From Luteitalea sp. TBR-22 (lineage in GTDB: Bacteria; Acidobacteriota; Vicinamibacteria; Vicinamibacterales; Vicinamibacteraceae): 64,000 bases of DNA. A model generated the notes under the pieces. That model had not been told where the DNA came from and did not search any database. It saw only the letters and a program-made list of their open reading frames with translations. Each line of letters opens with the position of its first letter. The first letter of the stretch is position 1. Below are positions 970 through 39,073 of this stretch, in pieces. The stretch lies in contig NZ_AP024452.1 in assembly GCF_016865485.1 (NCBI RefSeq), forward strand, positions 1,572,501 to 1,636,500. The letters run 5' to 3'. Position numbers and translations under genes: made by a program.

Positions 970-3096
970 TTATGCGGGTATCGGCGACGGGAGCGCGCCA
1001 GGGGCGGCCGCCCCCACGACGAGAGGGAAGGTCAGGCTGGTGCGGGTGCCGCGTTCCTGGCGCACGGTCGCGAGGCGGCCCTCGAGTTGCTCGGTGAGGG
1101 CCTGCATGAGGCGCATGCCCAGCGTCTGCGTCCGATCGGGGAGGAGGTCTTCGGGCACGCCGACGCCATTGTCCACGATCTCGATGCGCACCTCGCCGCT
1201 CCTGGCCAGGGCCTGCACGCGGAGCACCGGCGGCGCGCCGTCGACGAACGCGTGCTTGAAGGCGTTGGTCAGCACCTCGTTGAGTAGCAGGCCGCAGGGC
1301 ACCGCCTGGTCCAGCGACAGCCGGATCGGCGCGATCTCGCGCTCGATGCGCAGCCCCGGCAGCGTGCCGCGGTACACGTTGGCCAGGTGATCCACCAGCG
1401 AGTCGAGGTAGCGCGAGAAGTCCACCGCCGACAGGTCGTCGGACCGGTACAGCACCTCGTGGACCATCGCCATGCTGCGCACGCGCGACTCGCTCTCGCG
1501 GAACACCCGCACCGTGTCCGGGTCCTTCGCATACCGTTGCTGCAGGTAGAACAGGCTCGACATGACGGCCATGTTGTTCTTGACGCGGTGGTGGACCTCG
1601 CGCAGCAGCACTTCCTTCTCGCGCAGGTTGGTCGCCATCCGTCGCTCGACGGCCCGTTGCTCGGTCACGTCGCGCACCGTCGCGATGATGCGCAACTGCT
1701 CGCCGAGCCGGTACGGACTCAGCCCCACCTGCGCCGGGAACGTCTTGCCGTCGCTGCGCACCGCGGTCAGGTCGGGCCCGGGACCACGCGTCAGCATCGC
1801 CTGCGGGTCGGCGGCGTAGCGCTCGCGATAGGCCTGCACCGCGCGCCGGTCGGTCTCGGCGACCAGCATGTCGCTCGACTGCCCCAGCAACTGGTTGCGC
1901 GAGTAGCCGAACATCCACTCCAGCGCGCCGTTGACCTCGACGATCAGCCCCTCGTCGTCGACCACGACGATGCCTTCGGGGGTGGCGTCGAGCAGCATGC
2001 GCAGCGACAGCGCGGTCCGCTCACGCTCGCCGATCTCGTGGACGAGCACGCCGTTGGCCTCGGCGAGGGCCTCGTTGAGCAGGCGCGTCTGGAACTCCTG
2101 CCAGCGTCCCTGCTCGATGGCCAGGGCCAGCACCAGCGTCGCCATGCCGATCGTGGCCAGGTACCACTGCGTCACGACGACGCGCGCGTCGAGGTCGGGG
2201 TGGGTGAGCGCGAACGCCGCGCCGCCGGCCCCCGTGCCCGAGACGGCGACCAGCGACAGGCCCACCATGGCGAGCACCGCGCCGCGGACGCCGAAGCGTA
2301 CCGCGATCAGGATCGCGAACGGGATCACCTCGAAGGGCAGCGAGAGCAGCATCGGCGCCCGCACGATCCCGACGCCGTCGAAGAAGACCAGCACCGACAC
2401 GAGGGACATGGCCCCGAACGCGAGGATCGCCTCCGGCGCTCGGCCGGCCCGCTGGGCGCCGGGCGACGTGGGCACGTGGGGGCGCTTCCAGACCAGGGCT
2501 GCCGGGGCGAACAGCATGATGCCGACGGCGTGGCCCGACGACCACACGGTGAACACGTGCCACGCGTCCACCATGGACCCGCCCGCGCCGCGCACGAACA
2601 TCGCCGCGGCCGCCGCCGCCACCATGGAGCTCAGCGTCCCGACGGTGACCAGCGCGAACAGGTCCTGGGGGCTGTCGAACCGGACCAGGGCCGGCCGCAT
2701 CCGCATCAGCGTCCACGTCGCCAGTACGGCCTCGGCCACGCCCAGGCCCGACAAGGGCAGCGCCAGGGTCAACGGCACGCCGAGCAGGTGCTGCAGGAGC
2801 GCGGTCGTGCCCCAGGCCGCCCCGGCCATCGACCACCAGGCCGCCCGGGGCAACAGCAGGAGTGCGCCGACGAGCACGCCGGCGGCCGGCCAGAGGATGG
2901 CGATGGAGCCGGGCACGCTGAACAGCCGGAAGCCGGCCCAAGCGGCGACGCCGTAGATCCCGGTCGCGGTCAGGATCTGCAGCGGCAGGGGCACCGCGAC
3001 GACCCGGGGGCGGGCGGCGGGACCTGACGTGTAGGGCGACTCCTGACGGGCGGGGGGATGGGGCACGGGCGGATGGTATGCCGCGTGCCAATGCAA
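970..3096 (-). CDS. MASE1-PAS sensor histidine kinase of the HisKA_2/HWE type
   Basis: This is a 708-residue inner-membrane sensor kinase. Residues about 35-320 are a run of hydrophobic helices typical of MASE1 sensory domains. A PAS domain (about 355-470) reads TPEGIVVVDDEGLIVEVNGA. The phospho-acceptor region REVHHRVKNNMAVMSSL is the HisKA_2/HWE type rather than classical HisKA. The ATPase domain has the N-box LLLNEVLTNAFKHAF and a DNGVGVP G-box. These kinases often phosphorylate stand-alone or N-terminal receivers, which fits the receiver-first hybrid abutting it downstream. The ligand is unknown; MASE1 is a membrane sensor domain of undefined specificity. The first ATG is used, and no other start in the hydrophilic first 33 residues is clearly better. 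Confidence 0.92.
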   Translation of the reverse strand: MHWHAAYHPPVPHPPARQESPYTSGPAARPRVVAVPLPLQILTATGIYGVAAWAGFRLFSVPGSIAILWPAAGVLVGALLLLPRAAWWSMAGAAWGTTALLQHLLGVPLTLALPLSGLGVAEAVLATWTLMRMRPALVRFDSPQDLFALVTVGTLSSMVAAAAAAMFVRGAGGSMVDAWHVFTVWSSGHAVGIMLFAPAALVWKRPHVPTSPGAQRAGRAPEAILAFGAMSLVSVLVFFDGVGIVRAPMLLSLPFEVIPFAILIAVRFGVRGAVLAMVGLSLVAVSGTGAGGAAFALTHPDLDARVVVTQWYLATIGMATLVLALAIEQGRWQEFQTRLLNEALAEANGVLVHEIGERERTALSLRMLLDATPEGIVVVDDEGLIVEVNGALEWMFGYSRNQLLGQSSDMLVAETDRRAVQAYRERYAADPQAMLTRGPGPDLTAVRSDGKTFPAQVGLSPYRLGEQLRIIATVRDVTEQRAVERRMATNLREKEVLLREVHHRVKNNMAVMSSLFYLQQRYAKDPDTVRVFRESESRVRSMAMVHEVLYRSDDLSAVDFSRYLDSLVDHLANVYRGTLPGLRIEREIAPIRLSLDQAVPCGLLLNEVLTNAFKHAFVDGAPPVLRVQALARSGEVRIEIVDNGVGVPEDLLPDRTQTLGMRLMQALTEQLEGRLATVRQERGTRTSLTFPLVVGAAAPGALPSPIPA

Positions 3097-3226
3097 GAGG
3101 AACTCCAGCCATGGGCGGGCCGGAGCGGGCCACCTGCTCGGGAAAAGTGGCCGCAGGAGGCGAAGGCGACCCGGCCGGCGGGCGACAGGTGTCGGCCCGT
3201 CGATGCCGCGGTCGGCCGGCCGGCCG

Positions 3227-12383: not shown

Positions 12384-14174
12384 ATGCGCCGTCGTGTTGG
12401 CTTCCTTCTGCTCCTGTGTCTCGCGATGCCGGCGACGGTGTCGGGTGGGCCGGCGCCCACGGCGCGGGCCGCGGCGCTTCGGGCGATCCCGCAGCTGCAG
12501 TCGTCTGCCGAGACCTGGTTCGAGAAGCGCAAGTGCGCGTCGTGCCATCACCAGGGGCTCGGCATGCTGACGATGGCGGTGGCGCGCGAGCGTGGCGTGC
12601 CGATCGACGAGCGACTCCTGTCACGGCAGCTCGATCGGACCCTGCCGCTGCCGCGGTACTGGCTCGAGTCCTTCGTCCTCGGTGAAGTCAGCATCAACGA
12701 GCCGGTCGGACAGAGCTACCGGGCGATCGCCGTCGGGGTGCTCGGCGCCACCCGAACGCCCCTCACCGACGCCATGGGGCACCTGCTGCTGGGGCAGCAG
12801 CACGTGTCGGGCGCGTGGCGGTCGTACTCGCATCGGCCGCCGCTCGAGGACACCGCGTTCACGGCCACGGCCCTCACCATCCGCGCCCTCAGCCTGTATC
12901 CGCCGCCCGGTCGCGAGGCCGACGTCGCGCGTCGCGTCGCGCGGGCGCGCGCCTGGCTGGCTGCCGCGACCCCGCGCGACACCGAGGACCGCGCCATGCA
13001 GATCCTCGGGCTGGCCTGGGCCGGGGCGCCGGCGTCGTCGCTGGCCGCCCACCGCCGCGCGTTGCTGGCACAGCAACGGCCGGACGGCGGCTGGGCGCAG
13101 ATCCCCACGCGCGCCAGCGACGCCTACGCGACCGGGCAGGTGCTCGTGGCGCTCTCGCAGGCGGCGGGTCTGTCGGTGCGCCACCCGTCGTTCCGTCGCG
13201 GCATCGAGTTCCTCCGCACCACGCAGCACGACGATGGGTCGTGGCTCGTCGAGACGCGCCGGACATGGCGACCCGGGCTGGAGCACGTCGAGACCGGCTA
13301 CCCGCACGGCAAGCACCAGTTCATCTCGTACGCCGGTGCGGGGTGGGCGACGCTGGCCCTGCTGCTGTCGGACCGCGACGCGCGGTCGCCGGCGATCGTC
13401 GGTCGCCCCCGTGCCGGGCGGCCGGCCACGGGGCCGAGCACGGAGCCCGACGGCCTGACGCCACTCATGCGCGCCGCGTACCTCGGGTCGCTCGCCGACG
13501 TCGAGGCGCGCCTCGCGGCGGGCGACGACGTCGATGCGAGCAGCCCGCGCGGGCTCACGGCGCTGATGTGCGCCGTGGCCGACCCGGCGAAGGTCGAGCG
13601 CCTGCTGCGCGCTGGCGCCGATCCCGCGAAGGCCACAGAGACGGGGCACACGGCATTGCTGTTGGCTGCCGGCACGAGCGGTGCCATGGACTCGGTGCGA
13701 CTCCTGCTGGCGCGGGGTGTCGCGACCGATGCGAGGACGACGCGCGGCACGTTCTCCGACCAGACGCCCTTGATGCGGGCCCTCCTGCGCGGCGATCTCG
13801 CCATCGCCGCGCGCCTGCTCGATGCCGGGGCGAGGATCGACGGCCCGGCGGGCACGGAACTCCCACCCGTGCTCGTGCCCGTCTTCCAGCAGGACGCCGA
13901 GACGCTGCGGTGGATGATCGCCCGCGGCGTCAACCTGGACGTGCACTTCTCCGACGAGTTCGTGCAGGGCGCCACGCCACTGATGATCGCGGCCGAGGAA
14001 GGCTCGCCAGAAACGGTGCGAGTGCTGCTCGAGGCCGGCGCCGACCCGACGCGGCGCGACTCCCTGGGGCACACCGCCCGCGACCTCGTGGACAAGGGCA
14101 TCGACTACGGGCCGACGGGCATCCGCGCCCTGCTCGTGACCGCGGAAGGCGCGCGCGACGCGGCCCGTCCGTGA
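12384..14174 (+). CDS. Exported haem-binding, alpha/alpha-toroid, ankyrin-repeat fusion protein
   Basis: This 596-residue protein has an unusual domain order. Residues 1-22 are a signal peptide. CASCHH at 51-56 is a single c-type haem site (CxxCH). Residues about 110-330 contain repeats like those of squalene-cyclase/prenyltransferase alpha toroids: DTAFTATALTIRALSLYPPP, RRALLAQQRPDGGWAQIP, IEFLRTTQHDDGSWLVETR. Residues about 350-580 are at least five ankyrin repeats, for example DGLTPLMRAAYLGSLADVEA and GATPLMIAAEEGSPETVRVL. The haem suggests a periplasmic electron-transfer or sensing role, and the ankyrin part protein binding. Related PVC/acidobacterial proteins pair a CxxCH segment with the same toroid; the ankyrin tail is the extra part. 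No function can be assigned. Confidence 0.8.
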   Translation: MRRRVGFLLLLCLAMPATVSGGPAPTARAAALRAIPQLQSSAETWFEKRKCASCHHQGLGMLTMAVARERGVPIDERLLSRQLDRTLPLPRYWLESFVLGEVSINEPVGQSYRAIAVGVLGATRTPLTDAMGHLLLGQQHVSGAWRSYSHRPPLEDTAFTATALTIRALSLYPPPGREADVARRVARARAWLAAATPRDTEDRAMQILGLAWAGAPASSLAAHRRALLAQQRPDGGWAQIPTRASDAYATGQVLVALSQAAGLSVRHPSFRRGIEFLRTTQHDDGSWLVETRRTWRPGLEHVETGYPHGKHQFISYAGAGWATLALLLSDRDARSPAIVGRPRAGRPATGPSTEPDGLTPLMRAAYLGSLADVEARLAAGDDVDASSPRGLTALMCAVADPAKVERLLRAGADPAKATETGHTALLLAAGTSGAMDSVRLLLARGVATDARTTRGTFSDQTPLMRALLRGDLAIAARLLDAGARIDGPAGTELPPVLVPVFQQDAETLRWMIARGVNLDVHFSDEFVQGATPLMIAAEEGSPETVRVLLEAGADPTRRDSLGHTARDLVDKGIDYGPTGIRALLVTAEGARDAARP

Positions 14175-30159: not shown

Positions 30160-32118
30160 ATGACCCGACCGTCGCGCAAGGTCGTGGCCTACGCGCTGGC
30201 GATCGCCGTGCCGACCCTGGTGCTGCTGGCGCTTGGTCTGCAGTCGGTGCGCCGGCAGCAGCAGGCCATCGCGCAGCTCGAGCAGGCCAACCGACGCCTG
30301 CAGGCCGAGCGCACGGCGGCGTCGCTGGCCGCTCGTGTCGCCTCGGCGGCCGCGGTGGCGCTGCGCGATCCGGCCTGGTCGTCGGGCACGGCCGGTGGAC
30401 AGGTGACCGCCTCGGCGATCCGGGACATCGCGCGACGGCACCCCGTGGCGCGCCAACTGGTACTCGTCGATGACCGCGAGGTGCGCCACCCCCGACTCCA
30501 CACGCCGCTCGAGGGCGACCAACCGCTCGAAGGACCGTCCTGTCGTCCCTCGGTCGCCGAGGCCGAGGCCGCCGAGTTCGCCGGCCGGCCGAACGTGGCG
30601 CTCGGTGCCTATCGCTCGTGCCTGGCGAGGACGACGGCGCCGGGACCCCGGGCCCGGCTCCTGGCCAGGATCGCGCGTGCGGAGCGACGCAGCGGCGACG
30701 TGGCCCGCTCGGTGGAGGTCTACGCGACCCTGGCCCGGCAGCACGGCGACGAGACGGATCGGTTCGGGCGGCCGTTCGGGCTCGTGGCCGCGCTCGAACT
30801 GCACGATCTCGAGGGCAGCCGGCACGCCGACCTGCTGCGGCAGGCCCGTGGCGATCTCGTCGCCGGTCGGTGGGACGTGAGTGACGAGCAGGCCCGGTAC
30901 TTCCTCGAGGAACTGCGCGGCCGGCTCGGCTCCTCGCTTCCGTCGTCGGCGCCCGCGCCCTTCCTCGATGCGCTGGCGGTGGCGCGCGCGGTGCAGGCGT
31001 CGCTGCCGCTGCAGGCCACGGGCGGTCCTGGCGACGTCGCCGGCGACGACGTGCTGCTCGAGGGGCGCCGCACGCGCGTGTACCACGCGCCGGTGGCCGG
31101 TCCTGACGGGCTGCGCGCGGTCCTGGTGCCCGACGCGCGATGGGTCGAGGCCGAGGCCCTGCCGGCCGTGCTGCGCGAGACCGGCGTGGCAGGACCGGCG
31201 CGCCTGCTCGGCGACCTCCGCGCCGTGCCTGCCGTGGGCGTGACCGCGTCGGCCGAGGGCCTGGCGCCGTGGCGGCTGTGGCTCGCCCCGGTTGCCGATG
31301 GCGCCGCGTCGCGGCTGCCGGTGGTGCTGCAGGGCGTGATCACGCTGCTCGTGTCGGGCGTGCTCGGGCTCGGCGTCCTGCTGCTCGTGCGCGACGTGCG
31401 GCGCGAACGATCGCTGGCGCAGATGCGGTCGCAGTTCGTGAGCGCGGCGTCGCACGAGCTGCGGACCCCGCTGGCGATGATCCTGCTCTATGCGCAGACC
31501 CTGCTCGAGGACGTCGACGCCGATCGCGAGGAGCGTCGCGGGTCGTACGAGATCATCGCGCAGGAGAGCGAGCGACTGCGGCACCTCCTCGACAAGGTGC
31601 TCGACTTCTCGCGCATCGACGCGGGGCGACGCAGCTACCGGTTCGAGGTGCGCGATCTCGACGAGAGCGTCGAGGCCGCGGTGCGGCTGATCGAGCCACA
31701 GCTGTCGCGGCGGGGGTTCACGCTGGAACGCGACCTCGCGCCCGTGCCGGGCGTCCGGCACGACACCGAAGCCATCACCGGCGCCGTCCTCAACCTCGTC
31801 GACAACGCGGCCAAGTACTCGGGTACGTCACGCCGCATCGAGCTGCGCCTGAGCGCCGACCTGGACGAGGCGCGCATCGCCGTACGCGACCACGGCATCG
31901 GCATCCCGGCCGAGGACCTGCCGCGCATCGGCGAGCGCTTCTTCCGCACCGCCCTTTCCTCGTCGATCGGCGGATACGGCCTCGGGCTGTTCCTGGTCGG
32001 TCATGCCATGTCTGCCCATGGCGGGCGCCTCGAGGTGACGAGTGCGCCAGGGGCGGGCAGCACGTTCACCCTCGTGATGCCGCGTCGCGGCGCCCCGCAA
32101 GCAAAGGAGCCAGCGTGA
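30160..32118 (+). CDS. Transmembrane sensor histidine kinase with TPR-like periplasmic region
   Basis: This 652-residue kinase has a helix at about 9-27 (YALAIAVPTLVLLALGL) and another at about 390-410 (GVITLLVSGVLGLGVLLLV). Between them lie about 360 periplasmic residues that include TPR-like helices (FAGRPNVALGAYRSCLA; RAERRSGDVARSVEVYATL). The cytoplasmic part has the H-box FVSAASHELRTPLAMILLY, N-box NLVDNAAKYSG and G-box GGYGLGLFLVGHAMSAHGG. Its stop overlaps the regulator's GTG, so the pair is a two-component system. The two cassettes downstream, also encoding TPR proteins, are its most likely local targets (inference). Confidence 0.9.
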   Translation: MTRPSRKVVAYALAIAVPTLVLLALGLQSVRRQQQAIAQLEQANRRLQAERTAASLAARVASAAAVALRDPAWSSGTAGGQVTASAIRDIARRHPVARQLVLVDDREVRHPRLHTPLEGDQPLEGPSCRPSVAEAEAAEFAGRPNVALGAYRSCLARTTAPGPRARLLARIARAERRSGDVARSVEVYATLARQHGDETDRFGRPFGLVAALELHDLEGSRHADLLRQARGDLVAGRWDVSDEQARYFLEELRGRLGSSLPSSAPAPFLDALAVARAVQASLPLQATGGPGDVAGDDVLLEGRRTRVYHAPVAGPDGLRAVLVPDARWVEAEALPAVLRETGVAGPARLLGDLRAVPAVGVTASAEGLAPWRLWLAPVADGAASRLPVVLQGVITLLVSGVLGLGVLLLVRDVRRERSLAQMRSQFVSAASHELRTPLAMILLYAQTLLEDVDADREERRGSYEIIAQESERLRHLLDKVLDFSRIDAGRRSYRFEVRDLDESVEAAVRLIEPQLSRRGFTLERDLAPVPGVRHDTEAITGAVLNLVDNAAKYSGTSRRIELRLSADLDEARIAVRDHGIGIPAEDLPRIGERFFRTALSSSIGGYGLGLFLVGHAMSAHGGRLEVTSAPGAGSTFTLVMPRRGAPQAKEPA

Positions 32119-32816
32119 CCATGACTGTGCCGACGGCGTCCACCGTGCTGGTGGTCGAGGACGAACCCGGGCTGTCGCGTGGACTCGAGATCAACCTGAA
32201 GCGCGAAGGGTATCGGGTGGTCGTGGCCGCCACCGGCGAGGCCGGCCTCGACCTGGCCATCCGGCACCAGCCGCAGCTGATCCTGCTCGACGTGACCCTC
32301 CCCGGCATGAACGGCTTCGACGTGTGCCGCGAGGTCCGCGCCCGTGGCATGGACGTGCCGATCATCTTCCTCACGGCGCGTACCGAGGAGCTCGATCGCG
32401 TGCTGGGCCTCGAACTCGGCGCCGACGACTACGTGGTCAAGCCGTTCATGCTGCGCGAGCTGCTCGCCCGGGTGCGGACCCGCCTGCGCCGCCACTCGCC
32501 GAAGCCGGCGGCGCTGCAGCGCTACCGGCTCGGCGAGGTGGACATCGACTTCGACGCGCAGGTGGCGCGGCGTGGCAGCGAGCCCGTGGAGTTCACGGCG
32601 CGCGAATTCGACCTGCTCAGGCTGTTCATCGCGTGCCGCGGCCAGGTGGTGACGCGCGACCGCATCCTCGACGAGGTGTGGGGCTACGAGGCGGGCACGA
32701 CGACGCGGACGGTGGACAACTTCGTGCTTCGATTGCGGCAGAAGCTCGAGCCCGTGCCGTCGGAGCCGCGATACTTCCTGACCGTGTACGGGAGCGGCTA
32801 CAAGTTCGTGGGCTGA
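32115..32816 (+). CDS. OmpR/PhoB-family response regulator
   Basis: The gene starts at GTG 32115, overlapping the kinase stop, with AGGAG five bases upstream; ATG 32121 is an alternative. The 233-residue product has a receiver with Asp59 (LILLDVTLPGMNGFDV) and Lys109 (DDYVVKPFMLREL). A winged-helix DNA-binding domain follows (FTAREFDLLRLFIACRGQVV; TRTVDNFVLRLRQKLEP; GSGYKFVG). This family binds short direct repeats spaced about one helical turn, and exactly such repeats occur 284 bp and 3.35 kb downstream, before each copy of the duplicated cassette. Confidence 0.93.
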   Translation: MTMTVPTASTVLVVEDEPGLSRGLEINLKREGYRVVVAATGEAGLDLAIRHQPQLILLDVTLPGMNGFDVCREVRARGMDVPIIFLTARTEELDRVLGLELGADDYVVKPFMLRELLARVRTRLRRHSPKPAALQRYRLGEVDIDFDAQVARRGSEPVEFTAREFDLLRLFIACRGQVVTRDRILDEVWGYEAGTTTRTVDNFVLRLRQKLEPVPSEPRYFLTVYGSGYKFVG

Positions 32817-32899
32817 ACGCCGAACGCCGAACGGCTGCAGCCGGTCTGCGGCTGCCGACGCCCGACTCCCGACTCCCGGCTCCCGACTCTCGCTCCCGG
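32815..32899. repeat. Two heptanucleotide arrays after the response regulator gene
   Basis: From inside the regulator's stop codon, gaacgcc repeats 2.9 times (32815-32834). After 26 bp, cccgact-type units follow (32861, 32868, 32875, 32882), then a 6-nt slip and a partial unit to 32899. Both arrays are period 7 although their units are unrelated. The second array runs directly into the 70-bp repeats. Confidence 0.7.
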
Positions 32900-33073
32900 A
32901 CGTCGCCGCCGCCCTTCTGGGCGACGGTCAGCGCCGAGGGCAGGTGGGGGGCAGCACGGCTTCTCCGGACGTAGCCGTCGCCCTTCAGGTCGACGGTCAG
33001 CGCCGAGAGCAGGTGTGGGGGCAGCACGGCTTCTCCGGACGTAGCCGTCGACCTTCAGGTCGACGGTCAGTGG
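32892..33073. repeat. Tandem repeat of about 70 bp (2.6 units) with internal hairpins
   Basis: Units begin near 32892, 32961 and 33031 (69- and 70-bp periods); the last is partial. Each contains a hairpin. The third is perfect (CCGTCGACCT, two bases, AGGTCGACGG), while the first and second have one mismatch each. No gene fits here: the six-frame readings are repeat translations. The 413-bp gap 32817-33229 thus holds heptamer arrays, this repeat, the phased operator repeats and the leader of the next gene. Confidence 0.75.
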
Positions 33074-33099
33074 CAGGGCAGGACGCACAGGTTCCGCGG

Positions 33100-33137
33100 T
33101 GACAAACTTTGACGACTCCTGACGACCACGATGACGA
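33100..33137 (+). promoter_or_regulatory. Phased TGACRA direct repeats upstream of cassette 1 (candidate OmpR-family operator)
   Basis: TGACAA at 33100, then TGACGA at 33110, 33120 and 33132, give spacings of 10, 10 and 12 bp. The same motif with the same spacing precedes cassette 2. A weak -10-like TAGGCT begins 25 bp after the start of the fourth repeat. The ATG is 92 bp after the last repeat. Direct hexamer repeats in helical phase are the known binding mode of OmpR/PhoB regulators, and such a regulator is encoded just upstream. Confidence 0.6.
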
Positions 33138-33229
33138 TCGGCACGCTGCGCATCGGTAGGCTCCTCGACATCCGGACGTTGTCGTCCATTGCCGGGTCCG
33201 CGCGTGGCGCGGTCCCCGAGGAACGCGCC

Positions 33230-33919
33230 ATGTCATCTGCCCGTCGCTCGCTGCTCGCCCTGTCACCGTGTGTCACCCTCGTGCTCACGCTCGCCGTCGC
33301 CTCGCCGGCCGCCGCGCAGAAGGCCGTGAAGTTCTACCCGGCGTCGATCACGTTCACCGACAGCCCGGCGTCCTCGTCACTGGTCGACGAGGTGCGGCTG
33401 ACCGACGACGGTTACGGCAAGACGTACGAGGGCGCGACGATCGTCACGGCAGACTCGGCGAACCTCAACATCGACCTGTCGCGCAGTCCGCGGAGGTTCA
33501 GCGTGACGCTGAAGGATGGCACGGCCTACACGGGCCCGCTGCCGGCGGGCACTGGCCCCGGGCAGGCCGGCGTGACGTACATCACCGGAACCCAGCTGAA
33601 CGTGTACGGCGTTCGTTCCCTGCTCGTGGGTGCGTCTGCCGTCCGCGACATGGGCATCACGGTGGACGAGATCAAGCGCGGGTATCGCCTGCGCTTCTGG
33701 CCCAACGCCGGCATCGGCACTCGCGTCTGCGTGACGCGCACCAGCCAGCAGACGTGGACTGTCTCGTCGCTGAAGGCCCTCGATGCGTGCGGCACGAGTG
33801 GCGACACGAGTGGCGGCGAGACCACCCGGCTGATCGACTCGAGCAGGTCGACCAACCCCTTGATTGGCACCTACGTCATGCCGTTCTCTTTCACGGTGGA
33901 TTGCCCGACCTGCCAGTAG
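33230..33919 (+). CDS. Secreted protein of unknown function, cassette 1 (paralogue of 36299-36961)
   Basis: The start is ATG 33230 after GAGGAA. The 229-residue product has a signal peptide (LVLTLAVASPAAAQ) and is otherwise beta-rich (AVKFYPASITFTD, KTYEGATIVTADSANLNIDL, GTQLNVYGVRSLLVGAS). The end YVMPFSFTVDCPTCQ matches the YAVPFAFTVACTANCPQ end of the cassette 2 protein, with two conserved terminal cysteines that could form a disulphide. Two further cysteines lie in GTRVCVTRTS and LDACGTSG. I recognise no family. The TPR/propeller gene starts about 11 bp downstream, so the two are surely co-expressed. Confidence 0.75.
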   Translation: MSSARRSLLALSPCVTLVLTLAVASPAAAQKAVKFYPASITFTDSPASSSLVDEVRLTDDGYGKTYEGATIVTADSANLNIDLSRSPRRFSVTLKDGTAYTGPLPAGTGPGQAGVTYITGTQLNVYGVRSLLVGASAVRDMGITVDEIKRGYRLRFWPNAGIGTRVCVTRTSQQTWTVSSLKALDACGTSGDTSGGETTRLIDSSRSTNPLIGTYVMPFSFTVDCPTCQ

Positions 33920-33930
33920 GAGCCGGCATC

Positions 33931-36072
33931 CTGGTTCGACACGGGTTTCTTCTCGTGGCCCTTGCGGGGGCGCTGGTGCTCGGGCGGGAGGGTCCGCGCA
34001 CCGCGCCGCTGCAGGCGCAGGCGCCGTCGGCGCCGACGGAACAGGGGCCGTCGGCGTCGGCGGTCCTTCAGCGCGGCATCACGCTGATGGAGACGCGGGG
34101 CGACTGCGCAGGAGCCGTCCCGTTGTTCACGCAGGCCGCGCGATCCAGGGAGCCCGTGGTCGCGGCACGGGCCCTGCTCCTGCGCGGGCAGTGCGAGGAG
34201 CGTCTCGGCCGCGCCGAGGCGGCGCGCGGCTCCTACGAGCGCCTCCTCCGTGACTTCCCGGGCTCCGACATCGTCATCGAGGCACGACGACGCCTCGACC
34301 GCCTCGTCGCGGCGGCCGCCGAGGGCGCCTTCCCGGGACTCGCCTCGCGACGACTGCCGCTGCCCAGCCAGGTGCCGTCGGGCTCGGTGTCGCGAGACGG
34401 TCGTTTCCTCGCCTATCACGACGAGGACGGCGTCGCGCGTCGCATGGCGACCGCCACGGGCCGGGCCGAAGCGCTGGTGTTCGGGTCCGACCCGGTGGAC
34501 GGCAGTCGTGCCGTGCCGCTCCTCCTCTCGCCCGACGGCCAGCGCGTTGCCTACACGTGGCACGCGCGCGCCACCCGGGCTCCGGGCGGAGGACCCGCGG
34601 CGCCGACGATGGAACTGCGGGTCATGGCCCTGCCGGCAGGCCCGCAGGAGACGCTCGTGCCGCAGGGCGACGCGCGCTCTGTACGCCCGGTCGCGTGGTC
34701 GGCCGACGGGCGCCAGGTGTTCGCCCTGGCGACCGACCCGGCGTACCGCGTCCGGCTGATCGTCGTCGACCTTGACACGCACGACGTCCAGAGGCTGGCC
34801 GACTTCGCGTTCTTCGAGCCCTTCCGGGTCTCGCCCCATCCGGATGGGGCGTCGGTGGCCTACGACGCGCCGACGGCCGGCGCGGCGCGCGACATCTTCC
34901 TGCTCGACGTGAAGACCCGGACGCCCGTCCCGCTGGTCCGGCATCCTGCCAACGACGTGCTGCCGGAGTTCATGCCCGACGGGCGCGGCGTGCTCTTCGT
35001 GAGCGACCGGCTCGGGCCGCTGTCGCTGTGGCTGCAGCGCATCAAGGACGGCCGGCCGGTCGGTGAACCGCAGATCGTCAGGCGCGACGTCGGCCGATTC
35101 TGGCCGATCGGCCTGACGACCACCGGGAGCTTCGTCCATGCGCTGCAGGTCGACCTGCCGGACATCCGCCTTGCGCGGCTCGACGCGACCGGACGCTTCG
35201 AGGAAGCCGCCCTCTCGCTGACGACGCAGTTCGCCGGAGCCAACACCGGTCCCGAGTGGTCGCCAGACGGGACATCGATGGCCTACCTCTCGTCGCGCGG
35301 TGCGATGAGCACCGGCCCCGGCTCGACGCTGCTCGTGGTGCGCGACCGGACGACCGGCGTCGAGCGGACGCTGCAGCCCGACCTGATCCACTTCCAGGGG
35401 CCGCGCTGGTCGCCCGACGGGACCCGCCTGCTCGTGCGCGGGCAGGGCACCAACGACCGGTACGGGTTCTTCCTCGTCGATGCCCGGACGGGTGCGGTGC
35501 AACCCGTGTTCGCGATGGAGGATGTGGAGCGGGAGACCGACCTCGGCGCCTACCAGTGGGTGCCGGGACGCGAGGCCGTCACCTACGCCCTGAACAACAC
35601 GGCGATCCGGACGCTCGACCTGCGGACGGAGACGTCCACCGACGTCGTGCCGCTGCGGCCTGGTCTTCGAATCACGGCCGGCCGCGGACTGGCGTGGGAC
35701 GCCGACGCGAGGCGTCTCGCGTACTCGACGTTCGAGGGCAACGCCAGGGCCTGGACGAACGTGTTGTACCTGCGCGAGGCCGGCGGCGAGACCCGCGAAC
35801 TGCTGCGGGCGGAGGGCCGAGACGACCTGCGTCTGATGGGCTGGATGCCCGACGGGCGATCGCTGCTGGTGCTGCGCGGCTTCGAGCGCCGCGACGGCCC
35901 CGAGGGCAAGACCGAGTTGTGGCGGGTGCCGGTCGATGGCACGGCGCCGGTGTTCACCGGCATCGCGCAGCCAGGGCTCCGCAACGTCACGATGCACCCG
36001 GAGGGGAAGGAGGTGGCTTACGTGTACGGCGGGAGCGCCTGGGCGACGTGGGCGCTGGACGGCCTGCGGTGA
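33931..36072 (+). CDS. Exported TPR plus WD40-like (PD40) beta-propeller protein, cassette 1
   Basis: About 713 residues. The start is inferred as CTG 33931: AGGAG lies eight bases upstream, and the product LVRHGFLLVALAGALVLGRE then aligns with the start of the cassette 2 paralogue (SVRRGRIALGLVCALLAGRE). TTG 33901 is an alternative. A signal peptide is followed by TPR helices (LMETRGDCAGAVPLFTQAAR; RGQCEERLGRAEAARGSYER) and then TolB-like propeller blades (FLAYHDEDGV; PDGQRVAYTWH; EWSPDGTSMAYLSSRG; RWSPDGTRLLVRGQG). It is probably a periplasmic protein-binding scaffold. It is presumably the partner of the small secreted protein encoded just before it. Confidence 0.8.
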   Translation: MVRHGFLLVALAGALVLGREGPRTAPLQAQAPSAPTEQGPSASAVLQRGITLMETRGDCAGAVPLFTQAARSREPVVAARALLLRGQCEERLGRAEAARGSYERLLRDFPGSDIVIEARRRLDRLVAAAAEGAFPGLASRRLPLPSQVPSGSVSRDGRFLAYHDEDGVARRMATATGRAEALVFGSDPVDGSRAVPLLLSPDGQRVAYTWHARATRAPGGGPAAPTMELRVMALPAGPQETLVPQGDARSVRPVAWSADGRQVFALATDPAYRVRLIVVDLDTHDVQRLADFAFFEPFRVSPHPDGASVAYDAPTAGAARDIFLLDVKTRTPVPLVRHPANDVLPEFMPDGRGVLFVSDRLGPLSLWLQRIKDGRPVGEPQIVRRDVGRFWPIGLTTTGSFVHALQVDLPDIRLARLDATGRFEEAALSLTTQFAGANTGPEWSPDGTSMAYLSSRGAMSTGPGSTLLVVRDRTTGVERTLQPDLIHFQGPRWSPDGTRLLVRGQGTNDRYGFFLVDARTGAVQPVFAMEDVERETDLGAYQWVPGREAVTYALNNTAIRTLDLRTETSTDVVPLRPGLRITAGRGLAWDADARRLAYSTFEGNARAWTNVLYLREAGGETRELLRAEGRDDLRLMGWMPDGRSLLVLRGFERRDGPEGKTELWRVPVDGTAPVFTGIAQPGLRNVTMHPEGKEVAYVYGGSAWATWALDGLR

Positions 36073-36102
36073 TGCCGCGACGCCGGGATGCCTGATGCGA
36101 GC

Positions 36103-36163
36103 CCCGACTCCCGACTCCCGACTCCCGTCTCCCGACTCCCGTCTCCCGTCTCCCGTCTCCCGT
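36103..36163. repeat. Heptanucleotide array (8 units of cccgact/cccgtct)
   Basis: Eight uninterrupted 7-bp units run from 36103 to 36158, plus a partial unit that merges with the first TGACAA operator repeat at 36163. It lies between cassette 1 and the promoter region of cassette 2. The unit matches the array at 32861, which stands in the equivalent position upstream of cassette 1, so it may have been copied with the cassette. Confidence 0.8.
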
Positions 36164-36210
36164 GACAATCGATGACAATCTTCGACGTTCACCGTGACGA
36201 TCGGTGACGA
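36163..36210 (+). promoter_or_regulatory. Phased TGACRA direct repeats upstream of cassette 2
   Basis: TGACAA at 36163 and 36173, a degenerate CGACGT at 36183, then TGACGA at 36195 and 36205: spacings 10, 10, 12 and 10 bp. The first four match the cassette 1 array in order and spacing. A -10-like TATCCT at 36220 starts 25 bp after the fourth repeat, the same distance as TAGGCT in cassette 1. The GTG start lies 88 bp beyond the last repeat. Confidence 0.6.
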
Positions 36211-36298
36211 CTGTCTTTCTATCCTTCGAAGCGTCCCGAGTCCCCTCCCGGCGTTGGTCCGCTCGACGGCTGTCGAGTCGTGTCGAAGGAGTCGAAAA

Positions 36299-36961
36299 GT
36301 GCTGCGAACCCCTGTCGTCCGTTCCATCCTCCGTGCCGGCGCCGTGGCGCTGGTCATCGGCGCGCTCGTGCCCGCCTCGCCCGCCTTTGCTCAGAAAGGC
36401 AAGCCGGTCCCGAACTCGACGGTGTCGGTGACCTTCGCCGACCGTCTCGGCGACGCGCTCACCAGCGACAACGGCACCCCGTATCCCGGAGGTGTGCTGT
36501 TCTCGGCGGCTGAAGGCGACCTGCGTCTCGACATCGGTGCCGCGGGTCGGCTGGTGAAGGTGGAACTGGGAACGCCCATCACTGCGCCGGTCGGCGAGGC
36601 GCCCCCTACGGGCACCTACTGGACCGATGCGGTGTTGTTCATCGAGAACCTCCGCGGCGTCGCAGTCGGCAGTACGGTGACGAGGCTGGGACGGATCGGC
36701 CTGGGCTCGGCCTATCCCAACCACGCCCTTGGCTTCCGCCAGACGACCATCGGGGGCGTGGAGATATACGGCACGCCGGTGTGCGTCTCGCGGCCGACCG
36801 CCGCCGAGTGGGTCGTGGCGTCGTCGGGATGCGTCGGCGAAACCAGCGACACTGCCGGCCTCTTCGAGGAGAACATCAAGCGGGTTGGGCAGCGGTTCAA
36901 GGCGACCTACGCCGTGCCGTTCGCATTCACGGTGGCCTGCACCGCCAACTGCCCGCAGTAA
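36299..36961 (+). CDS. Secreted protein of unknown function, cassette 2
   Basis: The start is GTG 36299, seven bases after AAGGAG. The 220-residue product has a signal peptide (AGAVALVIGALVPASPAFAQ). The mature part is beta-rich: TVSVTFADRLGDALT, LRLDIGAAGRLVKVELG, YWTDAVLFIENLRGVAVGS, GVEIYGTPVCVSRPTAAEW. The C-terminus FAFTVACTANCPQ is shared with the cassette 1 paralogue; overall identity is low, so the duplication is old. I recognise no family. The next gene starts 9 bp after its stop. Confidence 0.75.
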   Translation: MLRTPVVRSILRAGAVALVIGALVPASPAFAQKGKPVPNSTVSVTFADRLGDALTSDNGTPYPGGVLFSAAEGDLRLDIGAAGRLVKVELGTPITAPVGEAPPTGTYWTDAVLFIENLRGVAVGSTVTRLGRIGLGSAYPNHALGFRQTTIGGVEIYGTPVCVSRPTAAEWVVASSGCVGETSDTAGLFEENIKRVGQRFKATYAVPFAFTVACTANCPQ

Positions 36962-36970
36962 GCTCTGTCC

Positions 36971-39073
36971 ATGCCATCCGTCCGGCGGGGCCGCATCGCC
37001 CTCGGCCTCGTGTGTGCGCTGCTGGCCGGGAGGGAGGGCCCGGCCAGCAGGGCTCAGGCGCCCTCGACGTCGTCTCCGGCGTCGGGGGCGCTGCAGCGTG
37101 CCATCACGCTGGTCGAGACGCGCGGTGACTGCCGCGGTGCCCTGCCCGAGCTCGACATTGCGGCACGCAGTACGGACGCCGCCGTTGCGCCGCGGGCGCT
37201 CCTGCTGCGCGGCCAGTGCCTCGAACGGCTGGGGCGACCGGCCGACGCGCGCGCGGCCTACGACGGCCTCGTCACGCGCTTTCCGACTCACCCGCTGACC
37301 CGCCAGGCCCGCCGGCGTGCGCAGGTCCTCGCCGCACCGACCAAGGGCGCGATCGCCGCGCCGTCGCTCACGCTGCGCCGCCTTGATGTCGGCGACGCGG
37401 TGCACTCGGGTTCGCTTTCGGGCGATGGACGATACGTGGCCTTCCACGACTCCGATTCGGTGCCGTTCCGTCGCGACCTGCTCACCGGTCGCGCCGAGAA
37501 GCTGACGCTCGGCGGCGAAACGGACGGCACTCGCGCGGAAGTCCTCCTGCTGTCCCGCGACGGGCAGCAATTGGCCTTCATGTGGGAGGTCGATGGACGC
37601 AGCGAACTGCGACTTGCCCCTGCGGTCAATGGTGGCGCAGCGGTCACGCTGGTACCCGCGGGGGCGTGGCAGGCCATCCGTCCGGTAGCCTGGACCCCCG
37701 ACGGCTCGACGATCCTGGTCATCACGACCGACTTCGAGTTCCGCCTGGCCCTGCAGGCAGTCGCGGTGCGTGCCCGGCGCCTCGACCGCCTGGCTGGCCT
37801 CGGCTTTGTCGATCCCTTTCATGTGTCCCTGTCACCAGACGGACGTCAGGTGCTGTTCGATCACGCGAACGGCTCTGGTCCCCGCGACATCGTGTTGCTC
37901 GACCTGGCCTCGCGGCGACTGACGCCGCTGGTCACGCACGCGGCCAATGACGTGATGCCGGTCTTCCTGCCCGACGGCCGGTCGTTCCTGTTCGCCTCCG
38001 ACCGCCTCGGCCCCTTGTCGCTCTGGCGTCACCCCCTGGGCGAGGACTCGGCGAATGAGTCGACGCTGGTCCGGCGAGACATCGGCCGTATCTGGGCGGT
38101 GGGCATGACCCCGGCCGGCGTTTTCGTGCACGGCCTGCAGACGGGCATGGTCGACGTGCACACGGTTCGACTTGGCGACGATGGACGACTCGCCGAGCAA
38201 GCCAGGCCCGTATCTGCCACGTTCGCGGGGTACAACCAGGCGCCCGACTGGTCACCCGACGGAGAGTCCCTCGTGTACGCGTCGACGCGGGGGGCGACAA
38301 TCGGGGGCGTTGGCTCGCGGGCTCTGGTGATTCGTGACCGCTCTACTGGACATGAGCGGCTGTTGTACCCCGACATGCTGTTCTTCAATGCGCCACGCTG
38401 GTCACCCGACGGGACGCGCATTCTCGTGAAGGGACGGCTCGCGTCCACGAACAAGTGGGGCGAGTACATCGTCGACGCCCGTACGGGCGCCGTCACCCCG
38501 GTGGTTGTTGCCAGCCAACTCATGGACGAGACCGAACTGGGCCCTCACCAATGGGTGCCAGGTCGTGAGGCGATCCTGCTGGCCCGGTACGGCAAGGGAC
38601 TCGTCGAAGTCGATCTCGCGACGGGGGCGGAGAAGACGCTCGTGCCCCTGGAGCCTGGCGTCAACATCACGGCACCACGGGGGTGTGCCTACGCGCCTGA
38701 CGGCCGCACGCTGGCTTGGTCAACAGTCGAACGCTCGGCTGGTCGTGGCAACGAGACGGTTCTGCGTGTGCGCGAACCCGGCGGCTCGGTGCGCGAGTTG
38801 CTGCGGTCCGTCGGGCCGGAGTGGCTGATGCTCATGGACTGGGCACCGGATGGACAAGCGGTGTACGTGGTGCGGCATTTTGCCGCGCGTTCCGGTGCGC
38901 TCCCTGCGCGGGCCGAACTGTGGCGCGTGCCCATCGATGGGAGTGCGCCGAGCGACATGGGACTGTCGGCGCCGTCGCTTCGCGCTGTGTCAGTGCATCC
39001 CGATGGCCGCAGGATTGCGTACGTCACCGGTTTCCCGACGTGGGAGATCTGGGCGTTGGAGGGGCTCAAGTAA
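36971..39073 (+). CDS. Exported TPR plus WD40-like (PD40) beta-propeller protein, cassette 2
   Basis: This 700-residue protein starts at ATG 36971 and is a full-length paralogue of the cassette 1 propeller protein. A signal peptide (RIALGLVCALLAG) is followed by TPR helices (LVETRGDCRGALPELDIAAR; RGQCLERLGRPADARAAYDG) and propeller blades with SPDG-type turns (VSLSPDGRQVLFDHANGSG; DWSPDGESLVYASTRGA; RWSPDGTRILVKGRL). It ends VTGFPTWEIWALEGLK. The strongest local similarity to cassette 1 is ANDVMPVFLPDGRSFLFASD against ANDVLPEFMPDGRGVLFVSD. The role is unknown; periplasmic protein-protein contact is likely. Confidence 0.82.
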   Translation: MPSVRRGRIALGLVCALLAGREGPASRAQAPSTSSPASGALQRAITLVETRGDCRGALPELDIAARSTDAAVAPRALLLRGQCLERLGRPADARAAYDGLVTRFPTHPLTRQARRRAQVLAAPTKGAIAAPSLTLRRLDVGDAVHSGSLSGDGRYVAFHDSDSVPFRRDLLTGRAEKLTLGGETDGTRAEVLLLSRDGQQLAFMWEVDGRSELRLAPAVNGGAAVTLVPAGAWQAIRPVAWTPDGSTILVITTDFEFRLALQAVAVRARRLDRLAGLGFVDPFHVSLSPDGRQVLFDHANGSGPRDIVLLDLASRRLTPLVTHAANDVMPVFLPDGRSFLFASDRLGPLSLWRHPLGEDSANESTLVRRDIGRIWAVGMTPAGVFVHGLQTGMVDVHTVRLGDDGRLAEQARPVSATFAGYNQAPDWSPDGESLVYASTRGATIGGVGSRALVIRDRSTGHERLLYPDMLFFNAPRWSPDGTRILVKGRLASTNKWGEYIVDARTGAVTPVVVASQLMDETELGPHQWVPGREAILLARYGKGLVEVDLATGAEKTLVPLEPGVNITAPRGCAYAPDGRTLAWSTVERSAGRGNETVLRVREPGGSVRELLRSVGPEWLMLMDWAPDGQAVYVVRHFAARSGALPARAELWRVPIDGSAPSDMGLSAPSLRAVSVHPDGRRIAYVTGFPTWEIWALEGLK

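Follow-up and report, generated by a model that had tools for sequence, protein, structure and literature searches.

On the plus strand of a 64,000-nucleotide stretch of the closed, 6,468,984-bp genome of Luteitalea sp. TBR-22 (contig NZ_AP024452.1, positions 1,572,501 to 1,636,500; hereafter the window), a sensor histidine kinase gene and an OmpR/PhoB-type response regulator gene are followed by two tandem copies of a cassette, each comprising a gene for a small secreted protein and one for a secreted protein with TPR and PD40 propeller repeats (export was judged by eye from the N-termini). An array of direct TGACRA repeats precedes each copy (Table 1). We propose that the two arrays are probably the operators of two activator-dependent promoters controlled by the neighbouring kinase and regulator, a reading based on sequence comparison.

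Two box arrays at a duplicated cassette

Array 2 lies in the register of array 1 displaced by exactly 3063 bp. Its box C is degenerate, and it carries a fifth box, E, 10 bp after D, where array 1 reads CACGCT. A first-pass annotation of the window had reported the box positions and a spacing of 10-10-12 bp in both copies, with start codons about 90 bp beyond the last repeat, and direct reading agrees on every coordinate; by eye, the starts are ATG at 33230 and GTG at 36299, preceded by the ribosome sites GAGGAA and AAGGAG, respectively. The repeats had also been described as conserved within diverged leaders, and this holds: the best ungapped alignment between the leaders coincides exactly with the array, in which 30 of 43 positions are identical, and has a score of 17, compared with a maximum of 14 among 300 dinucleotide shuffles, whereas 20-bp blocks outside the array at the same offset share 3-9 identities in the leader and at most 11 in the coding part.

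The 6.47 Mb genome holds a single exact match to the four-hexamer pattern, and with up to three mismatches only the two window arrays are found (control 0); the frequent random occurrence against which the first-pass annotation had cautioned was not seen. The shorter pattern TGACRA-N4-TGACRA has six matches genome-wide (control 0), four in the window arrays and two in a duplicated coding stretch outside the window. A chance origin of the arrays was rejected on the basis of the genome scan and the shuffles. The coding stretch to which the two other two-box matches belong is a toxin-antitoxin-like gene pair, present twice about 10.6 kb apart (L038, ~2658-3157 and ~13281-13780); HigB/HigA is a candidate label given by eye, with no family search.

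Table 1. Features of the locus, in window coordinates
Feature	Position	Strand	Basis or remark
Sensor histidine kinase (HisKA, HATPase_c)	30160..32118	+	Pfam HisKA + HATPase_c; start codon picked by eye
OmpR/PhoB-type response regulator	32115..32816	+	Pfam Response_reg + Trans_reg_C
REP-like palindromic repeats, dispersed, between regulator and array 1	32895..33070	none	Repeat analysis
Array 1	33100..33137	+	Boxes A TGACAA 33100, B TGACGA 33110, C TGACGA 33120, D TGACGA 33132; spacing 10-10-12
Candidate -10 hexamer TAGGCT, 25 bp past start of box D	33157..33162	+	Same offset as in array 2 and part of the relatives
Small secreted protein, copy 1	33230..33919	+	Signal peptide by eye
Secreted TPR + PD40 beta-propeller protein, copy 1	33955..36072	+	Pfam PD40 + TPR_16; start codon uncertain
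Array 2	36163..36210	+	Boxes A TGACAA 36163, B TGACAA 36173, C CGACGT 36183, D TGACGA 36195, E TGACGA 36205; spacing 10-10-12-10
Candidate -10 hexamer TATCCT, 25 bp past start of box D	36220..36225	+	Offset from box D start
Small secreted protein, copy 2	36299..36961	+	33% identical to copy 1
Secreted TPR + PD40 propeller protein, copy 2	36971..39073	+	49% identical to copy 1

The regulator matches the Pfam receiver domain with 100.7 bits and the winged-helix Trans_reg_C domain with 86.8 bits, both above cut-off, which establishes the OmpR/PhoB domain type that had been assigned to the gene upstream of array 1; 283 bp separate the two. We take its recognition helix to be TTRTVDNFVLRLRQKLE, an assignment based on OmpR-family structure. 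The extracytoplasmic part of the kinase is long and looks TPR-like by eye only, as no Pfam TPR match was found in the kinase at E<=0.1. The small proteins have no match in Pfam or NCBIfam at E<=0.1, and their predicted structure, with a mean pLDDT (predicted local distance difference test) of 35.6, was not used. A third paralogue of the small protein is encoded elsewhere in the genome (C1:407922; L027, 1456-2148), behind a gene that looks TPR-like by eye; neither an array nor a propeller gene was seen in this 3.6 kb stretch. The repeats between regulator and array 1 consist of a palindrome like those of the repetitive extragenic palindrome (REP) type, CCGTCGACCTTCAGGTCGACGG, in tandem; a 31-mer of it has 58 dispersed copies genome-wide with up to three mismatches (control 0). 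Immediately 5' of array 2 lies a 14-bp tandem repeat, CCCGACTCCCGTCT (36103-36158).

The gene module and its arrays in other genomes

The kinase, the OmpR-type regulator and the secreted TPR/PD40 propeller protein form a recurrent gene module in the class. This gene order was found in 11 of 20 fetched regions, which had been selected for a kinase, propeller or small-protein match, and at 20 of 32 propeller loci (28 from the class and four from the source genome; 29 with room to tell) a regulator lies no more than 1 kb upstream on the same strand. All four other full-length propeller paralogues of the source genome have a regulator within 1 kb upstream. In the window, the kinase gene is likewise followed by the regulator and the secreted TPR/PD40 gene, all on the same strand, but the propeller gene is not directly behind the regulator: repeats, array and small-protein gene intervene, and the locus departs from the usual module by these inserted repeats, the small-protein gene and the duplication. 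Within the order, 3 of 161 other genomes have a weak match to the kinase sensor, and within the class 4 of 192 others have one to the small protein.

Across 193 class genomes, the strict 10-10-12 pattern was found in the source genome and in two chance-like matches with three mismatches (control 1), which speaks against conservation at close range; because the class scan gave only these others, the exact spacing looks private to the source genome. Loss of the motif in relatives that keep the genes had been named beforehand as a point that would count against the first-pass reading. The motif is indeed missing from the other 192 genomes, those two matches apart, but the genes themselves are hardly kept there. 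A variant pattern, TGACAW-N4-TGACAW-N4-TTAC, has two matches in 396 genomes of the phylum (control 0), one directly behind a related regulator (G464) and one read as a 400-bp stretch only (G438). A scan of 39 related loci for three TGAC at steps of 10-12 bp gave one chance-like case (L030); it would also miss array 2, because the third box there is CGAC.

The comparison was then widened by searching 84,980 species genomes for related kinases; the best 80 of at least 570 relatives were used. The closest regulator among the matches listed is that of the Acidobacteria genome LacPavin_0920_SED5_MAG_65_11 (L119), 63% identical, with the helix TTRTVDNHILRLRQKLE and the whole module. Between its regulator and propeller genes stands the array CGACAATTGT TGACAAAGAA TTACTTCCATT TGACAACCGG, and 5' of its kinase gene the sequence TGACATCCACCCG TGACGATTGG TGACAT, which resembles CGACGTTCACCG TGACGATCGG TGACGA of the window. 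After this locus had been seen, a four-box score was written, fixed at steps of 10-10-10/11/12 with a threshold score of 14, to be reached within 250 bp. A total of 122 regulator genes were read, 119 remaining after removal of duplicates and the window's own, 113 of them with at least 60 bases behind the gene. Behind these 113 regulators, the threshold was reached 17 times in the forward orientation and once in reverse, with 0-3 in each of 20 shuffles; at a score of at least 15 the figures were 14, one and 0 in 20 shuffles. A count of TGAC pairs, independent of the four-box score, found 13 (at 12 loci) at 10 bp, six at 11 bp and 0-3 at each of the remaining spacings between 6 and 16 bp, with none in reverse at either 10 or 11 bp.

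Among the positive loci are ones labelled Acidobacteria, Aminicenantes, Ignavibacteria, Chlorobi, KSB1, Bacteroidales, Labilibaculum and Cyclobacteriaceae; one labelled Mollicutes (L193) reads nearly like the Bacteroidales locus L192, and another of the 17, L106 with boxes AGACAA AGACAA, appears to be a chance hit. The products behind the relatives' arrays look exported by eye. They are TPR/PD40 or PD40 propellers at L119, L196 and L190; L126 and L127, the two loci on which Pfam was run for this purpose, have a small protein and then a protein whose N-terminal domains are of the sugar-binding-like GH2 type; at L112 a DUF5122 propeller is matched weakly, and at L120 a PEP-CTERM motif is present. 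At six loci labelled Ignavibacteria, KSB1, Chlorobi and Labilibaculum (L126, L127, L137, L151, L162 and L172), the array stands 5' of genes with a GH2-N/jelly-roll-like start by eye, several of them after a small-protein gene.

The arrays are linked to a clade of regulators. They occur with 13 of 37 regulators that have Leu at residue 9 of the recognition helix (TRTVDNFVL in the window) and with 4 of 76 that do not (Fisher 8e-5), a residue chosen after inspection of the data and a test that ignores kinship. For a broader helix class (VDN plus F, H or Y), with arrays in front of the kinase included, the counts are 12 of 38 and 8 of 81 (p 0.007, kinship again ignored).

Candidate promoter and competing explanations

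In both window copies, a TANNNW hexamer (W, T or A) begins exactly 25 bp past the start of box D, and the same offset is seen at L137, L127, L196, L151, L126, L165 and L172, that is, at 7 of the 10 relatives that score at least 14 and have a third step of 11. The boxes lie upstream of this -10-like hexamer and cover the -35 position. Such geometry fits, without proving it, an activator that replaces the -35 contact. We envisage that a signal perceived by the kinase would lead to phosphorylation of the regulator, whose phosphorylated dimers would line up head to tail along the TGACRA direct repeats, each occupying two boxes and all on the same face of the DNA; the bound regulator would then recruit polymerase to the -10 element, standing in for a -35 element, and both small-protein/propeller cassettes would be switched on together. 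The local two-component regulon suggested in the first-pass annotation gains support, at the level of sequence patterns, from the unique arrays, the same design behind related regulators, the L119 array and the shared -10-like position, and it can be extended beyond the window.

Several observations weigh against this activator model. Array 1 starts 283 bp past the regulator gene, which ends at 32816, while 14 of 17 relatives have their array within 45 bp; no array was found 5' of the window's own kinase gene, and 5' of 118 kinase genes scores of at least 14 barely exceed noise (4 in forward orientation and 2 in reverse, 0-2 in shuffles). Among close relatives, L068 (59% identical) has only two boxes, TGACAATTCG TGACTT, 5' of the kinase gene, and at L118 (60% identical) no array was seen up to the contig end 100 bp past the gene. 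The positive loci are partly related, several of them closely, and the counts are not independent events; 24 of the 37 Leu-9 regulators have no array at threshold. Of the loci with a third step of 11, L119, L171 and L106 lack TANNNW at the 25-bp offset, as do all seven relatives with a third step of 10, four of which are Bacteroidales-like and have TGTAAATTG or GGTAAATTG after box D instead; box D itself is degenerate at L151, L126, L165 and L172. A sigma-70 scan of 32800-37000 gave no match, which says little with an average of 0.1 matches in shuffles; because the scan is too weak, the absence of a -35 element is not demonstrable by it. Neither the scan nor the -10 position supports activation strongly, and this lowers our confidence in the model.

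A held-out set of 74 lower-ranked regulators, fetched afterwards and scored as before, adds little. Among the 73 testable loci, one array reached 14 (0 in reverse, 0-1 in shuffles); it belongs to L218, where position nine of the regulator's helix is Met instead of Leu. None of the three held-out Leu-helix regulators reached the threshold. TGAC pairs numbered one at 10 bp, five at 11 bp and 0-2 elsewhere. Of the 74 regulators, 57 carry Ala at residue 9, where arrays are not expected. Two Leu-helix loci of the same genome family (L202 and L205) fall just below threshold with TGACAATCTT TTACAC..CT TGACAA and TATATT at the 25-bp offset. A three-box rule, written after these two had been seen and the only rule that they fit, finds 8 of 186 in forward orientation, none in reverse and 0-1 in 30 shuffles; four of the TANNNW offsets equal 25, and no other value occurs more than once. 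The held-out set thus offers weak support for the geometry, and solely after the fact.

It is unlikely that the arrays serve another regulator that shares the neighbourhood by coincidence. The genome is rich in candidates of the same type (197 at first look, seven scored), but arrays of the same design stand directly behind related regulators in several phyla, in the forward excess given above, and they associate with the recognition helix, if post hoc; at L119, boxes flank the pair on both sides, 5' of the kinase and behind the regulator. Somewhat less probable again is that the neighbouring regulator binds the arrays as a repressor. OmpR-type regulators can repress, and the sigma-70 scan lacks the power to prove a missing -35; against repression stands the position of the boxes, upstream of the -10-like hexamer and over the -35 position. 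The boxes could also be functionless relics of the cassette duplication, the cassettes being tandem duplicates, yet this is very improbable given that the array kept far more identities than the leader blocks around it and that other phyla have these boxes too.

The explanation to which we give least credence is that the shared TGACGATCGG is coding, the D boxes being the in-frame N-terminus of the small proteins (ATG/GTG ACG ATC GG, at 33131 and 36194). Both D-box frames are open up to the genes, but the signal peptides judged by eye start at 33230 and 36299, each with a good ribosome site before it, the N-terminal extension is unconserved past MTIG and does not take in boxes A to C, and those arrays of relatives that were read are intergenic.

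Beyond activation of the two cassettes by the neighbouring pair, a broader picture may be entertained as a tentative possibility: a self-contained two-component module across phyla, in which kinase and regulator would be joined by a multi-box operator and -10 element in an invariant arrangement and by an exported output protein of propeller or sugar-binding-like type, the helix would set the period (10 bp for TRTVDN, 11 bp for DRVVD), and the TPR output would feed back on the TPR-like sensor. Pairs at 11 bp occur behind 5 of 26 regulators with a DR-type helix (shuffles 0), and the other 87 regulators have five at 11 bp and six at 10 bp; because 11-bp pairs are also found behind 5 of 87 without such a helix, the odds for this picture are lowered. 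The DR-type regulators concerned (DRVVD, DRVID or DRAVD; L084, L073, L075, L191 and L178) have CTGAC, TTGAC or CTCAC pairs at 11 bp behind the gene.

Relation to known systems and meaning

PhoB acts through the Pho box, in which TGTCA, the complement of TGACA, recurs with a period of 11 bp. The window is similar in having an OmpR/PhoB-type regulator and direct repeats that would replace the -35 element, and differs in its 10-10-12 spacing; its regulator scores 198.1 bits in the PhoB equivalog model, below the cut-off of 296.2. VicR/WalR (YycF) likewise uses direct half-sites. In that system and in KdpE, the half-site sequences differ from TGACRA, and the window regulator stays below both models (YycF, 222.5 bits with a cut-off of 340; KdpE, 164.5 with a cut-off of 325). 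KdpE is reported to bind two 6-bp direct-repeat half-sites (PMC3264566). The cyanobacterial OmpR-type regulator RpaB recognizes HLR1 direct repeats with a 10-bp period (PMC9241938). The resemblance lies in the OmpR-type regulator and in box C, which reads TTAC in several relatives of the window; here, however, the motif is TGACR rather than TTACA, there are four to five boxes and they are located behind the regulator gene, and the RpaB equivalog model gives 202.5 bits with a cut-off of 330. TolB shares the PD40 propeller repeats with the window proteins, which have TPR in front of them and score 84.6 and 86.7 bits, far from the TolB equivalog cut-off of 343.15.

Searches of the open-licence literature that paired two-component signalling with the TGACA motif or with the PD40 and WD40/TolB propeller families found no account of the module or of the operator. 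To our knowledge, Acidobacteria have many two-component systems, few of them with known targets. If the arrays are operators of the neighbouring regulator, the secreted TPR/PD40 propellers would gain a regulatory context, and an operator that adjoins its own regulator gene, with a geometry that recurs in several phyla, would make targets and helix-to-DNA rules readable from sequence for a large unstudied clade.

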